From Enterobacter asburiae (GTDB taxonomy: Bacteria; Pseudomonadota; Gammaproteobacteria; Enterobacterales; Enterobacteriaceae): 64,000 nt of DNA. Both the position numbers and the translations under genes were made by a program. The DNA lies in contig NZ_AP019632.1 in the NCBI RefSeq assembly GCF_007035645.1, positions 1,674,001 through 1,738,000 on the forward strand. Direction: 5' to 3'. A model generated the notes under the pieces. It searched no databases. It was not told the DNA's origin and saw nothing but the letters and a program-made list of their open reading frames with translations. Shown in pieces: positions 6,616 to 52,505 of this stretch (position 1 is the stretch's first letter; each line of letters opens with the position of its first letter).

Positions 6616-6642
6616 TTATCGGCCTCTCAACGTAAAAGTTTA
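6616..6642 (-). promoter_or_regulatory. Sigma-28 (FliA) promoter of fliD
   Basis: On the minus strand the sequence reads TAAACTTT-N11-GCCGATAA, 15 of 16 positions of the consensus TAAAGTTT-N11-GCCGATAA with exact spacing. It lies about 40 bp upstream of the fliD start. Confidence 0.92.
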
Positions 6643-6877: not shown

Positions 6878-6904
6878 TAAAGTCTTTTGGGGACCCGTCG
6901 ATAA
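6878..6904 (+). promoter_or_regulatory. Sigma-28 (FliA) promoter of fliC
   Basis: TAAAGTCT-N11-GTCGATAA, 14 of 16 consensus positions with exact 11-nt spacing, about 75 bp before the fliC ATG. The rest of the 401-bp fliD-fliC gap (6578-6978) is AT-rich and shows no further gene. Confidence 0.93.
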
Positions 6905-9200: not shown

Positions 9201-9920
9201 GTGAATTCACTCTATACCGCTGAAGGTGTAATGGATAAACACTCGCTGTGGCAGCGTTATGTCCCGCTGGTGCGTCACGAAGCATTGCGCCTCCAGGTGC
9301 GCTTGCCGGCGAGCGTGGAACTCGACGATCTGCTACAGGCGGGCGGTATCGGGTTATTGAATGCAGTTGACCGATACGACGCTCTGCAAGGAACGGCATT
9401 TACGACTTACGCAGTTCAGCGTATTCGTGGTGCGATGCTGGACGAGCTGCGCAGCCGCGACTGGGTGCCGCGCAGTGTTCGCCGCAACGCGCGCGAAGTG
9501 GCGCATGCGATGGGGCAGCTGGAACAGGAACTGGGACGTAACGCAACGGAAACCGAAGTGGCGGAGCGTCTTGGCATTGCTGTTGAAGAGTATCGTCAGA
9601 TGTTGCTCGATACCAATAATAGCCAACTCTTCTCTTATGACGAGTGGCGCGAAGAGCATGGCGATAGCATCGAGCTGGTGACGGACGAGCACCAGCATGA
9701 AAACCCGTTACACCATTTAATGGAAGGGAATTTACGCCAGCGCGTCATGGAGGCTATTGAAGCTCTGCCTGAACGCGAACAGCTGGTATTGACCCTTTAT
9801 TACCAGGAAGAGCTTAACCTCAAAGAGATTGGCGCTGTTCTGGAGGTGGGAGAGTCGCGGGTGAGCCAGCTGCACAGCCAGGCCATTAAACGCTTACGAA
9901 CCAAGCTGGGTAAGTTATAG
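9201..9920 (+). CDS. fliA: Flagellar sigma factor FliA (sigma-28)
   Basis: Sigma-28 (239 aa, the E. coli length) directs RNA polymerase to class III flagellar and chemotaxis promoters and is held inactive by FlgM until the hook is finished. Region 2 (DDLLQAGGIGLLNAVDRYD, about residues 42-60) and region 4 with its helix-turn-helix (LNLKEIGAVLEVGESRVSQL, about residues 207-226) are intact. The start is GTG, as in E. coli. fliZ follows 54 nt downstream in the same direction. Confidence 0.97.
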   Translation: MNSLYTAEGVMDKHSLWQRYVPLVRHEALRLQVRLPASVELDDLLQAGGIGLLNAVDRYDALQGTAFTTYAVQRIRGAMLDELRSRDWVPRSVRRNAREVAHAMGQLEQELGRNATETEVAERLGIAVEEYRQMLLDTNNSQLFSYDEWREEHGDSIELVTDEHQHENPLHHLMEGNLRQRVMEAIEALPEREQLVLTLYYQEELNLKEIGAVLEVGESRVSQLHSQAIKRLRTKLGKL

Positions 9921-12527: not shown

Positions 12528-13196
12528 ATGCAAGAAAGTATTCAGCTGGTTATTGATTCTCTGCCGTATCTGCTGAAAGGTGCGGTATTTACGTTACAGC
12601 TCAGTATCGGCGGGATGTTCTTCGGGCTGGTGCTGGGATTTGTGCTGGCATTAATGCGCATGTCACCCATCCTGCCGGTACGCTGGCTGGCGCGCTTTTA
12701 TATTTCCGTATTTCGCGGCACGCCGCTTATCGCCCAGCTCTTTATGATCTACTACGGCTTGCCGCAGTTTGGTATCGAGCTGGATCCGATCCCCGCAGCG
12801 ATGATTGGTCTGTCGCTCAATACCGCGGCGTACACGTCAGAAACCCTGCGAGCGGCGATCTCCTCCATTGACAAAGGGCAGTGGGAGGCGGCGGCCAGTA
12901 TCGGGATGACGCCATGGCAGACGCTGCGTCGGGCCATTCTGCCGCAGGCTGCGCGCGTGGCGCTTCCACCGCTCAGCAACAGCTTCATTAGCCTGGTGAA
13001 AGATACGTCCCTGGCGGCAACGATTCAGGTACCGGAGCTGTTCCGTCAGGCGCAGCTCATTACTTCGCGCACGCTTGAGGTCTTTACCATGTATCTGGCC
13101 GCCTCGCTGATTTACTGGGTGATGGCGACGGTGCTGTCTGCTCTGCAAAACTACTTCGAAAACCAGCTTAACCGCCAGGAGCGTGATCCAAAATGA
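12528..13196 (+). CDS. tcyL: Cystine ABC transporter permease TcyL
   Basis: A 222-aa His/Glu/Gln/Arg/opine family permease of the cystine importer in the inner membrane. Several hydrophobic segments are seen (for example about residues 18-43), together with the EAA loop EAAASIGMTPWQTLRRAILP (about residues 120-139) that contacts the ATPase. The stop overlaps the tcyN start by 4 bp (ATGA), showing translational coupling. Confidence 0.95.
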   Translation: MQESIQLVIDSLPYLLKGAVFTLQLSIGGMFFGLVLGFVLALMRMSPILPVRWLARFYISVFRGTPLIAQLFMIYYGLPQFGIELDPIPAAMIGLSLNTAAYTSETLRAAISSIDKGQWEAAASIGMTPWQTLRRAILPQAARVALPPLSNSFISLVKDTSLAATIQVPELFRQAQLITSRTLEVFTMYLAASLIYWVMATVLSALQNYFENQLNRQERDPK

Positions 13197-13945
13197 GTGC
13201 TATCGACGTCAAAAACCTGGTGAAAAAATTCCACGGTCAAACGGTGCTCCACGGGATCGATCTTGAAGTCGAGCAGGGTGAAGTGGTGGCGATTATCGGA
13301 CCAAGCGGTTCGGGAAAAACGACGCTGCTGCGCAGTATTAACCTGCTTGAACAGCCGGAAGGCGGCACTATTCGGGTAGGGGAGATAACGATTGATACCG
13401 GGAAATCCATTAGCCAACAGAAAGGGTTAATTCGCCGCCTGCGCCAGCATGTCGGCTTCGTTTTCCAGAGCTTTAATCTCTTCCCGCACCGTACGGTGCT
13501 GGAGAACATTATTGAAGGACCGGTCATTGTAAAAGGTGAATCGAAAGAGGAAGCGACGGCGCGCGCGCGCGAACTGCTCGCTAAAGTCGGGCTCGCGGGG
13601 AAAGAGACCAGCTATCCGCGCCGTCTGTCTGGCGGGCAACAGCAGCGCGTGGCGATAGCGCGCGCGCTGGCTATGCGCCCTGACGTGATCCTTTTTGATG
13701 AACCGACCTCTGCGCTCGATCCGGAACTGGTGGGTGAAGTGCTGAACACCATTCGCCAGCTGGCGCAGGAAAAACGGACGATGGTGATCGTGACGCATGA
13801 AATGAGCTTTGCACGCGATGTGGCTGACAGAGCCATCTTCATGGATCAGGGGCGGATTGTGGAGCAGGGGCCGGCGAAAAGCCTGTTCGCTAATCCTCAG
13901 CAGCCGCGAACCCGTCAGTTCCTTGAAAAATTCCTGATGCAGTAG
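13193..13945 (+). CDS. tcyN: Cystine ABC transporter ATP-binding protein TcyN
   Basis: ATPase (250 aa) of the TcyJLN cystine importer. Walker A is GPSGSGKTT (residues 36-44), signature LSGGQQQRVAIARAL, Walker B VILFDEPTSALDP, and H-loop IVTHEMSF. Last gene of the operon; a hairpin without T run follows at 13958-13990. Confidence 0.96.
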   Translation: MSAIDVKNLVKKFHGQTVLHGIDLEVEQGEVVAIIGPSGSGKTTLLRSINLLEQPEGGTIRVGEITIDTGKSISQQKGLIRRLRQHVGFVFQSFNLFPHRTVLENIIEGPVIVKGESKEEATARARELLAKVGLAGKETSYPRRLSGGQQQRVAIARALAMRPDVILFDEPTSALDPELVGEVLNTIRQLAQEKRTMVIVTHEMSFARDVADRAIFMDQGRIVEQGPAKSLFANPQQPRTRQFLEKFLMQ

Positions 13946-13957
13946 CATTTTTGCACT

Positions 13958-13990
13958 AATTTGCTCCAGAAATTTAGGCTGGAGCAAATT
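13958..13990 (+). terminator. Hairpin at the end of the tcy operon
   Basis: AATTTGCTCCAG-N9-CTGGAGCAAATT, a perfect 12-bp stem 12 nt after the tcyN stop. No T run follows, so termination strength is uncertain. Confidence 0.55.
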
Positions 13991-14056
13991 ATTCTCCCTT
14001 CGGGGGCAGTCGTTTGTTTTTTTATTCCATCCGGCCCGGATAAACCTTATCAATAG

Positions 14057-14083
14057 TAAAGTTAATTGTGCTAATGCCGATAT
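14057..14083 (+). promoter_or_regulatory. Sigma-28 (FliA) type promoter upstream of sdiA
   Basis: TAAAGTTA-N11-GCCGATAT: 14 of 16 consensus positions with the exact 11-nt spacing, the same score as the fliC promoter in this window. Transcription would start near 14090, giving a leader of about 77 nt before the sdiA ATG at 14167. No other gene lies between. The link to FliA control is an inference from sequence. Confidence 0.75.
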
Positions 14084-14166
14084 TTTGTAGTTAGAAAAAA
14101 GTTTTATGTGTTAGGTTATATTCACCATAATAATGATTATCTTTTCAGAGGCTTCATTTAGTAAGT

Positions 14167-14889
14167 ATGAAGGATTCAGACTTTTTCACCTGGCGACGGG
14201 ATTGCTCCCTCCGGTTTCGGGAATTGACGAATACCGATGAGGTATATCGAGAGCTAGAGCGGCAAACTCAGGCGCTGGAATTCGATTATTACGCGCTCTG
14301 CGTGCGACATCCCGTGCCCTTTACGCGCCCTAAAATCTCTTTGCAGACCACTTATCCAAAGCCGTGGATGGCGCAATATCAATCCGCGAACTATTTCGCT
14401 ATCGATCCGGTTTTAAAAGCGGAAAATTTCATCCAGGGTCATTTGCCCTGGACAGACGCATTATTTGCCGAGGCGCAGGAATTATGGCATAGCGCCCAGG
14501 ACCACGGTTTACGCGCGGGAATAACGCAGTGCCTGATGCTGCCTAATCATGCGCTTGGCTTCCTGTCTGTTTCCCGTACTAGTGCACTGGAAGGGCCGTT
14601 TGCCCATGAGGAAATAGAACTGCGGCTGCAAATGCTGGTGCAAATGGCCTTAACTTCTCTGGTGCGTTTTGAAGATGAGATGGTCATGCCACCTGAAATG
14701 AAATTCAGCAAACGCGAGCGCGAAATTCTGAAATGGACTGCGGAAGGGAAGACGTCAGCGGAAATAGCGATCATTCTCTCTATCTCAGAGAATACCGTTA
14801 ACTTCCATCAGAAAAATATGCAGAAGAAATTCAACGCGCCTAACAAAACCCAGATTGCGTGCTACGCGGCGGCAACGGGACTGATCTGA
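14167..14889 (+). CDS. sdiA: LuxR-type quorum-sensing receptor SdiA
   Basis: SdiA (240 aa) is a LuxR-family receptor without a partner LuxI synthase in most enterics; it senses acyl-homoserine lactones made by other species. The N-terminal autoinducer domain (about residues 15-165) contains the YYALCVRHPVPFTRPK and DPVLKAENFIQGHLPW segments, and the C-terminal LuxR helix-turn-helix spans about residues 175-235 (FSKREREILKWTAEGKTSAE, SENTVNFHQKNMQKKF). No luxI-like gene occurs in the window. A sigma-28 type promoter precedes it. Confidence 0.95.
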   Translation: MKDSDFFTWRRDCSLRFRELTNTDEVYRELERQTQALEFDYYALCVRHPVPFTRPKISLQTTYPKPWMAQYQSANYFAIDPVLKAENFIQGHLPWTDALFAEAQELWHSAQDHGLRAGITQCLMLPNHALGFLSVSRTSALEGPFAHEEIELRLQMLVQMALTSLVRFEDEMVMPPEMKFSKREREILKWTAEGKTSAEIAIILSISENTVNFHQKNMQKKFNAPNKTQIACYAAATGLI

Positions 14890-15646: not shown

Positions 15647-16303
15647 TTGATCAACGTCCTTCTTGTTGATGACCACGAACTGGTGCGCGCAGGGATACGA
15701 CGCATTCTTGAAGATATTAAAGGTATTAAGGTTGCCGGTGAGGCGTGCTGCGGCGAAGATGCGGTAAAATGGTGCCGCACAAACTCGGCCGATGTGGTAC
15801 TGATGGATATGAACATGCCCGGTATCGGTGGCCTTGAAGCAACACGCAAAATCGCGCGTACCTTTGTTGATACAAAAGTCATCATGCTGACCGTGCATAC
15901 CGAAAACCCACTGCCCGCGAAAGTGATGCAGGCGGGCGCAGCGGGCTACCTGAGTAAAGGTGCTGCGCCGCAGGAAGTCGTCAATGCGATCCGTTCCGTG
16001 TTTGCCGGACAGCGCTACATAGCGTCCGACATTGCCCAGCAGATGGCGCTGAGTCAGATCGAGCCCGAGAAAACCGAATCACCGTTTGCCAGTTTGTCCG
16101 AGCGTGAATTGCAGATTATGCTGATGATCACCAAAGGTCAGAAGGTGAATGAGATCTCGGAGCAGCTGAATCTCAGCCCGAAAACGGTGAACAGCTATCG
16201 TTACCGGATGTTCAGTAAACTGAACATTCATGGCGACGTTGAACTGACGCACCTGGCCATCCGGCACGGTTTGTGTAATGCGGAGACGTTGTTAAGTCAG
16301 TGA
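15647..16303 (+). CDS. uvrY: Response regulator UvrY (BarA/UvrY system)
   Basis: UvrY (218 aa) is the response regulator phosphorylated by BarA; it activates the Csr small RNAs and so affects carbon storage, motility and biofilm. Receiver domain with D8, D9 and phospho-acceptor D54 (VLMDMNMPG), then a LuxR/FixJ-type helix-turn-helix (about residues 148-205, [16 protein letters not shown]). The start is TTG at 15647, as in E. coli, preceded by TCTGGAGA. uvrC overlaps its stop. Confidence 0.96.
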
Positions 16304-40348: not shown

Positions 40349-40927
40349 ATGAGCGAGAAAAGCATTGTTCAGGAAGCGCGTGACATACAGTTGGCCATGG
40401 AGCTGATTACACTGGGTGCTCGTTTACAAATGCTGGAAAGCGAGACTCAGCTGAGCCGTGGCCGTCTCATCAAACTGTACAAAGAGTTACGTGGTAGTCC
40501 CCCGCCGAAAGGCATGCTGCCGTTTTCTACCGACTGGTTTATGACGTGGGAGCAGAATATTCATGCTTCCATGTTCTGTAATGCCTGGCAGTATCTTCTC
40601 AAAACCGGTTTGTGTAGCGGCGTTGACGCCGTGATCAAAGCGTACAAACTTTACCTTGAACAATGCCCACAGCAGGAAGAAGGCCCTCTGCTGGCGCTGA
40701 CCCGCGCATGGACGCTGGTGCGTTTTGTTGAGAGCGGAATGCTTGAACTGTCGCGCTGCAACTGCTGCGACGGCAATTTTATTACCCATGCTCATCAACC
40801 TGCAGGCAGCTTCGCCTGTAGTTTATGTCAGCCTCCATCCCGCGCAGTAAAAAGACGTAAACTTTCCCGGGATGCTGCCGATATTATTCCACAACTGCTG
40901 GATGAACAGATCGAACAAGCTGTTTAA
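40349..40927 (+). CDS. flhC: Flagellar master regulator subunit FlhC
   Basis: FlhC (192 aa) carries most DNA contacts of FlhD4C2. The zinc site is visible as CNCCDGNF (about residues 137-144) and CSLC (about 157-160). The last part of the gene also contains a sigma-28 promoter that reads into motA (40858-40884). Confidence 0.96.
40858..40884 (+). promoter_or_regulatory. Sigma-28 promoter inside flhC, for MotR/motAB-cheAW
   Basis: TAAACTTT-N11-GCCGATAT: 14 of 16 consensus positions with exact spacing, located in the flhC coding sequence. In E. coli the motA promoter is also inside flhC. Predicted start near 40891. Confidence 0.88.
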
Positions 40928-52478: not shown

Positions 52479-52505
52479 TAAAGTTCCTGTGGGCTGTGCC
52501 GATAA
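52479..52505 (+). promoter_or_regulatory. Sigma-28 promoter of tar-tap-cheRBYZ
   Basis: TAAAGTTC-N11-GCCGATAA: 15 of 16 consensus positions with exact spacing. It begins 27 bp after the stop of the fimbrial tip gene and about 58 bp before the tar ATG. Confidence 0.93.

Follow-up and report, generated by a model that had tools for sequence, protein, structure and literature searches.

The window analysed here is a 64,000-nucleotide stretch of the Enterobacter asburiae chromosome (contig NZ_AP019632.1). It carries sdiA, encoding a LuxR-type receptor for acyl-homoserine lactones (AHLs), with the cystine transporter gene tcyN upstream and the response regulator gene uvrY downstream (Table 1). The assignment as SdiA is supported by the NCBIfam SdiA equivalog (469 bits against a cut-off of 350) and by the position of uvrY, and solved SdiA structures match the protein over residues 1–240. 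Among the named loci considered, the best 80 of 196, the nearest SdiA is that of E. vonholyi (96%). The gene for the flagellar sigma factor FliA lies within the window and flgM is present in the genome.

A hairpin had been predicted from the sequence at the end of the gene preceding sdiA, and a strong stem of 13 bp is indeed found 3' of tcyN (13957–13991; z -3.54, whole stretch). The T-rich stretch does not follow this stem directly but is preceded by a small second stem. A simple terminator scan called no terminator after tcyN, and an Rfam search of the whole window returned three tRNAs only, with no match near sdiA. The two stem-loops and the T-rich stretch form a possible transcript end, and sdiA may well have a transcript of its own as a consequence, despite the null result of the simple scan.

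Table 1. Features of the sdiA region and other putative sigma-28 sites in the window
Feature	Position	Strand	Remark
fliD sigma-28 site	6616..6642	-	15/16, internal yardstick
fliC sigma-28 site	6878..6904	+	14/16, internal yardstick
fliA, sigma-28 factor	9231..9920	+	about 4.2 kb upstream of sdiA
tcyN, cystine transporter ATP-binding protein	13193..13945	+	gene upstream of sdiA
Two stem-loops after tcyN	13957..14006	+	followed by T-rich stretch, about 14013–14024
Sigma-28 -35 box TAAAGTTA	14057..14064	+	7/8 consensus
Spacer, 11 bp	14065..14075	+	differs between species
Sigma-28 -10 box GCCGATAT	14076..14083	+	7/8 consensus
AT-rich block with TTATGTGTTAG; TTATGTG at 14104–14110	14079..14140	+	30 chosen aligned rows
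Predicted sigma-28 transcription start	14089..14092	+	inferred
sdiA, LuxR-type AHL receptor	14167..14889	+	240 aa
uvrY, two-component response regulator	15647..16303	+	downstream of sdiA
motA sigma-28 site	40858..40884	+	14/16, within end of upstream reading frame
Sigma-28 site of methyl-accepting chemotaxis protein gene	52479..52505	+	15/16

The sequence TAAAGTTA-N11-GCCGATAT occupies positions 14057–14083 of the forward strand and is separated by 83 bases from the sdiA start codon at 14167. Scored against TAAAGTTT and GCCGATAA set 11 bp apart, which we take to be the sigma-28 consensus, it matches at 14 of 16 positions with a spacing of exactly 11. A match of this quality and spacing arose in 8 of 20,000 dinucleotide shuffles of the 250 bases upstream of sdiA. 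The two boxes described in the original prediction are thus confirmed, and its comparison with the fliC promoter is correct as judged by the number of mismatches, two in each. Across the window there are five sites with at most three mismatches, versus 0.53 expected, and none of 100 shuffles reached five.

The whole genome holds 18 sites with at most two mismatches, and a reversed control pattern gave none. Eleven of the 17 sites other than that of sdiA stand in front of fliC, fliD, motA, flgM and ycgR, five chemoreceptor genes and an EAL gene of the pdeH type; in this genome, most sites that match this well and precede a gene start are therefore sigma-28 sites. For two of the five chemoreceptor genes, the site overlaps the beginning of the longest computed frame, in which the sensor domain starts at a later position. 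No recognised flagellar gene lies in front of four of the 17; each of these overlaps a computed reading frame on the same strand as the site, and two are located deep within the frame. Outside the window, a 15/16 site is located 48 bases before a CHASE4-GGDEF gene (G000:C1:2415500-2415526, reverse strand; L208), which on sequence grounds is a candidate flagellar-controlled cyclic-di-GMP gene, and a 14/16 site precedes a gene of the SrfA family (G000:C1:3941603-3941629, forward strand; L219).

Upstream regions were compared for 80 named loci, the best of 196, and for the 124 genomes, out of 392 in the family, in which SdiA was matched. Of these 204 loci 170 were kept, the other 34 being dropped where the last 150 upstream bases were those of another locus or fewer than 150 were available. 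Scoring the best of several offsets favours boxes, and column statistics were therefore taken from a fixed anchor, an NNATGTG motif with the box placed 47 bases before it, which removes the choice of offset. A stricter first version of this anchor placed 117 loci; the wider version, its pattern extended after inspection of the deeper genera, placed 135 of the 170 and left 35 without an anchor.

Conservation of the box is concentrated in a single register. Between -116 and -106 relative to the start, a score of at least 12/16 is seen in 43 of 170 loci (per-locus shuffle chance 0.0012). Eight further stretches of equal width yield no such locus, and at one of them three loci reach 11. In the anchored set the box register holds 36 of 135 loci at 12/16 or better and 48 at 11/16 or better, with a mean of 9.2, compared with at most two and three loci, respectively, and a mean no higher than 5.81 in 50 other registers. 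With the stricter anchor the corresponding figures are 35 of 117 loci at 12/16 or better against no more than two at any of 30 shifts. For the 24 loci of the Enterobacter group, the -35 and -10 boxes carry 1.35 and 1.60 bits per column and the spacer 0.51, although the upstream flank is also fairly conserved at 0.96 bits, which counts against the promoter reading. For Citrobacter and Salmonella (24 loci) the values are 1.53 and 1.36 bits for the two boxes, 0.70 for the spacer and 0.47 for the flank. An alignment across near relatives had been proposed to see whether the boxes are kept where their flanks are; conservation is borne out in Enterobacter, most Citrobacter and Salmonella, and fails in Escherichia, Klebsiella and Kosakonia.

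Scores of at least 12/16 are found in most Enterobacter, two of four Lelliottia, most Citrobacter (others score 11, and C. amalonaticus 8) and four of the five genomes of Salmonella (genus g46, of which two genomes were identified by identical sdiA). Deeper in the family they recur in three of five genomes of genus g66 and one of two of g123, the latter one base off register, and 11/16 versions occur in the common register in two of four of g109 and two of five of g20. The aligned Escherichia sequence, AAAAGTAA-N11-AATAATAT, retains part of the -35 box and has lost the -10 box. Klebsiella/Raoultella, Kosakonia, Leclercia and Pseudocitrobacter all score below 11. Even among the 24 loci of the group closest to the window, one scores 8 and three score 11, which indicates that the box is dispensable. 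At -116 to -106, 21 of the 124 sdiA genomes score at least 12 and 97 with fliA do not; two of the 21 (genus g68) lie outside the common register and score 8–9 of 16 within it. A fliA match is lacking in six of the 124 genomes and none of the six has the box, a number too small for a test of co-loss.

In a tree of SdiA with 133 rows (two of the 135 were omitted, L202 by name and one with fewer than 200 residues) the state of the box changes at least 12 times, or 15 times at a threshold of 11, a count that gives no direction. Because Escherichia falls within the Citrobacter/Salmonella group and the register is common, the box is most likely an old site that was already present in a common ancestor with Salmonella, Citrobacter and some of the deeper genera and was lost several times; its repeated gain is possible. 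Within genus g2 (Klebsiella/Raoultella), G153, G309 and G369 have no fliA match, and G001 and G242 carry a diverged fliA, 81–84% identical and far from sdiA, as if reacquired or part of a second system. Two record titles look wrong, namely that of a 'Chryseobacterium' contig with an enterobacterial sdiA (L063) and that of 'Lelliottia nimipressuralis', whose sdiA groups with Enterobacter (L002).

The -10 box runs into an AT-rich block that is conserved also in genera without the box. The block is kept in the 30 rows chosen for alignment, which include Klebsiella and Raoultella, and in Escherichia from the nearly invariant TTATGTG onwards; it fades in the deeper genera, as seen in the loci without the anchor motif (35 of 170). 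The CGATATTTT end of the -10 box is part of the block that is found also without FliA. Since Raoultella terrigena keeps the block, and over 600 bases its sdiA does not differ from that of G309, which has no fliA match, the block must serve something besides FliA. From its conservation it is probably a FliA-independent promoter, a regulator site or a leader, and no sigma-70-type site was found at 13900–14200. Crp and LeuO are reported as further regulators of sdiA in Salmonella (PMC11619404). Together with the conserved block, these reports argue against the original proposal that the receptor is built only after the hook is complete.

Control of sdiA by FliA had been put forward as lacking an established description; the link is, however, already known from Salmonella, and the Enterobacter promoter is an extension of it. 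Direct regulation by FliA is in print (PMC11619404, PMC12086679), and the latter review cites Plitnick et al. 2020 for a FliA-dependent sdiA promoter in Salmonella enterica serovar Typhimurium and describes motility, via FliA, as an essential regulator of SdiA in Salmonella. Among the matches listed in a literature search, titles and opening abstracts contained no description of a sigma-28 promoter of sdiA in Enterobacter. SdiA activity is reported to rise in motility agar in Salmonella and not in E. coli (PMC2812512), and a term search of the main text of an E. coli flagellar network map returned no sdiA (PMC4183435). The loss of the -10 box in E. coli fits both observations and offers a simple explanation of the difference between the two species in motility agar. 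In one strain of E. cloacae, motility agar is reported to have raised the sdiA-dependent fold change of some fusions, with no such rise in the remainder (PMC4444967), a point against the promoter reading.

The explanation that we hold with considerable confidence combines FliA-driven transcription of sdiA with a second, FliA-independent input and an old box that was lost several times. The box at 14057–14083 is very probably a working sigma-28 promoter, as judged from its score and exact spacing, its position, the presence of both fliA and flgM in the genome, and boxes that are held over a variable spacer in relatives, though absent in several genera; to this extent the original prediction is supported. 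RNA polymerase carrying FliA would start near 14090, presumably about 7 nt after the -10 box as at known sigma-28 promoters, and the resulting sdiA mRNA would have a leader about 77 nt long. In the flagellar cascade, FlgM leaves the cell once the hook-basal body is complete, and FliA is freed. Freed FliA would then raise sdiA together with flagellin, chemoreceptors and the stator, and the FliA-independent input in the conserved downstream block would probably provide a basal level of SdiA.

A different balance between these inputs is conceivable. FliA may start transcription at the box and contribute a minor share of the SdiA level, with sdiA driven by a FliA-independent promoter in the downstream block. 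The conservation of that block in the 30 aligned rows, the 97 of 124 genomes that keep sdiA and fliA without the box, and the action of Crp and LeuO in Salmonella (PMC11619404) all agree with such an arrangement, but the essential role ascribed to motility via FliA in Salmonella (PMC12086679) and the null search for a sigma-70-type site do not, and we regard it as a serious though clearly less probable account. It is improbable that the box is a by-product, its -10 half kept through overlap with the FliA-independent block and its -35 half a result of chance or drift. In its favour, Raoultella and further genera that lack the box retain a sequence resembling GATATTTT. Against it, Enterobacter, Citrobacter and Salmonella preserve the -35 box jointly with the first part of the -10 box, 11 bp apart, across a spacer of varying sequence, and a single register accounts for 36 of 135 loci at 12/16 or better. 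Least credible of all is a pure chance match to the 16-position consensus; the four genomic sites with no recognised flagellar gene, all overlapping reading frames, suggest that some matches do arise by chance or are non-coding, but a frequency of 8 in 20,000 shuffles and conservation in a fixed register make this very improbable here. The by-product and chance readings were set aside on the basis of the shuffles, the fixed register and the greater conservation of boxes than spacer.

Under the preferred explanation of FliA-driven transcription with a second input, the link known from Salmonella extends to Enterobacter through a box that the sequence indicates to be old and patchily kept, and from its distribution one can predict in which genera quorum sensing is coupled to flagella and in which it is not. 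In a genome with its own AHL synthase this coupling could mean something else. A single such gene is matched in the genome of the window (PF00765, 2.7e-42, over the cut-off; G000:C1:2217544-2218050), away from sdiA and thus not beside the receptor. Located outside the window, this luxI is convergent with a luxR-type gene across a gap of 14 nt (G000:C1:2216726-2218131; L224:1127-2532), and both proteins score below the curated cut-offs of the NCBIfam families listed. Two of the five genomes searched in the genus, that of the window and one other, have an AHL synthase match. The Enterobacter of the window therefore probably makes an AHL of its own, and SdiA may encounter the signal of its own population. 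It had been suggested that SdiA serves for listening to other species; given a luxI/luxR pair in the same genome, it need not hear only others, and it differs in this from a LuxR solo in a genome without a synthase. No sigma-28 site with three or fewer mismatches was found at the luxI/luxR locus.

Taken together, published observations allow a circuit in which flagella act on SdiA and SdiA in turn on flagella, which may operate here. An easI mutant of E. asburiae AG129 is reported to show more swimming and more flagellar proteins, with the discussion of the same paper stating no difference in motility in vitro (PMC12728822); deletion of sdiA in Cronobacter sakazakii is reported to increase fliA and fliC expression and motility (PMC9120920); and SdiA is described in a review as repressing flagellar genes in E. 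coli (PMC12086679).

A direct SdiA site on the flagellar genes was sought with a box pattern that we presume to represent SdiA binding. The window contains seven matches with at most one mismatch where 5.0 are expected, which is the level of chance; none lies just upstream of flhDC, fliA or fliC, and one falls in the leader of sdiA itself. The scan thus lends no support to a feedback loop. A rather speculative extension, which we consider unlikely, is that in AHL-producing Enterobacter the sigma-28 promoter would restrict SdiA to flagellated cells, where AHL made by the population itself with an EasI-type synthase would load it and flagellar expression would be lowered, amounting to a density checkpoint on motility. 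If this were true, the wiring used for eavesdropping in Salmonella would here be put to self-sensing.

The convergent arrangement of luxI and luxR resembles that reported for easI and easR of Enterobacter asburiae L1 (PMC7585371), a comparison of layout only. In kind and spacing, and with no more than two mismatches, the sdiA box resembles the class III flagellar promoters (fliC, fliD, motA, methyl-accepting chemotaxis protein genes, flgM, ycgR and pdeH), although the product of sdiA is neither a flagellar nor a chemotaxis protein. The closest known counterpart is the sdiA promoter of Salmonella, where we assume that the reported FliA site corresponds to the aligned box. In the five Salmonella genomes this box lies at -109 to -111 before the same gene with the 11-bp spacing seen in the window; it scores 12/16 in four of the five and 10/16 in S. 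arizonae, in comparison to 14/16 in the window. On that assumption, direct control by FliA is reported for a box weaker than that of the window, which favours the promoter reading. The two systems differ on the signal side, as an AHL synthase match is found in none of the five Salmonella genomes, whereas the genome of the window has one.
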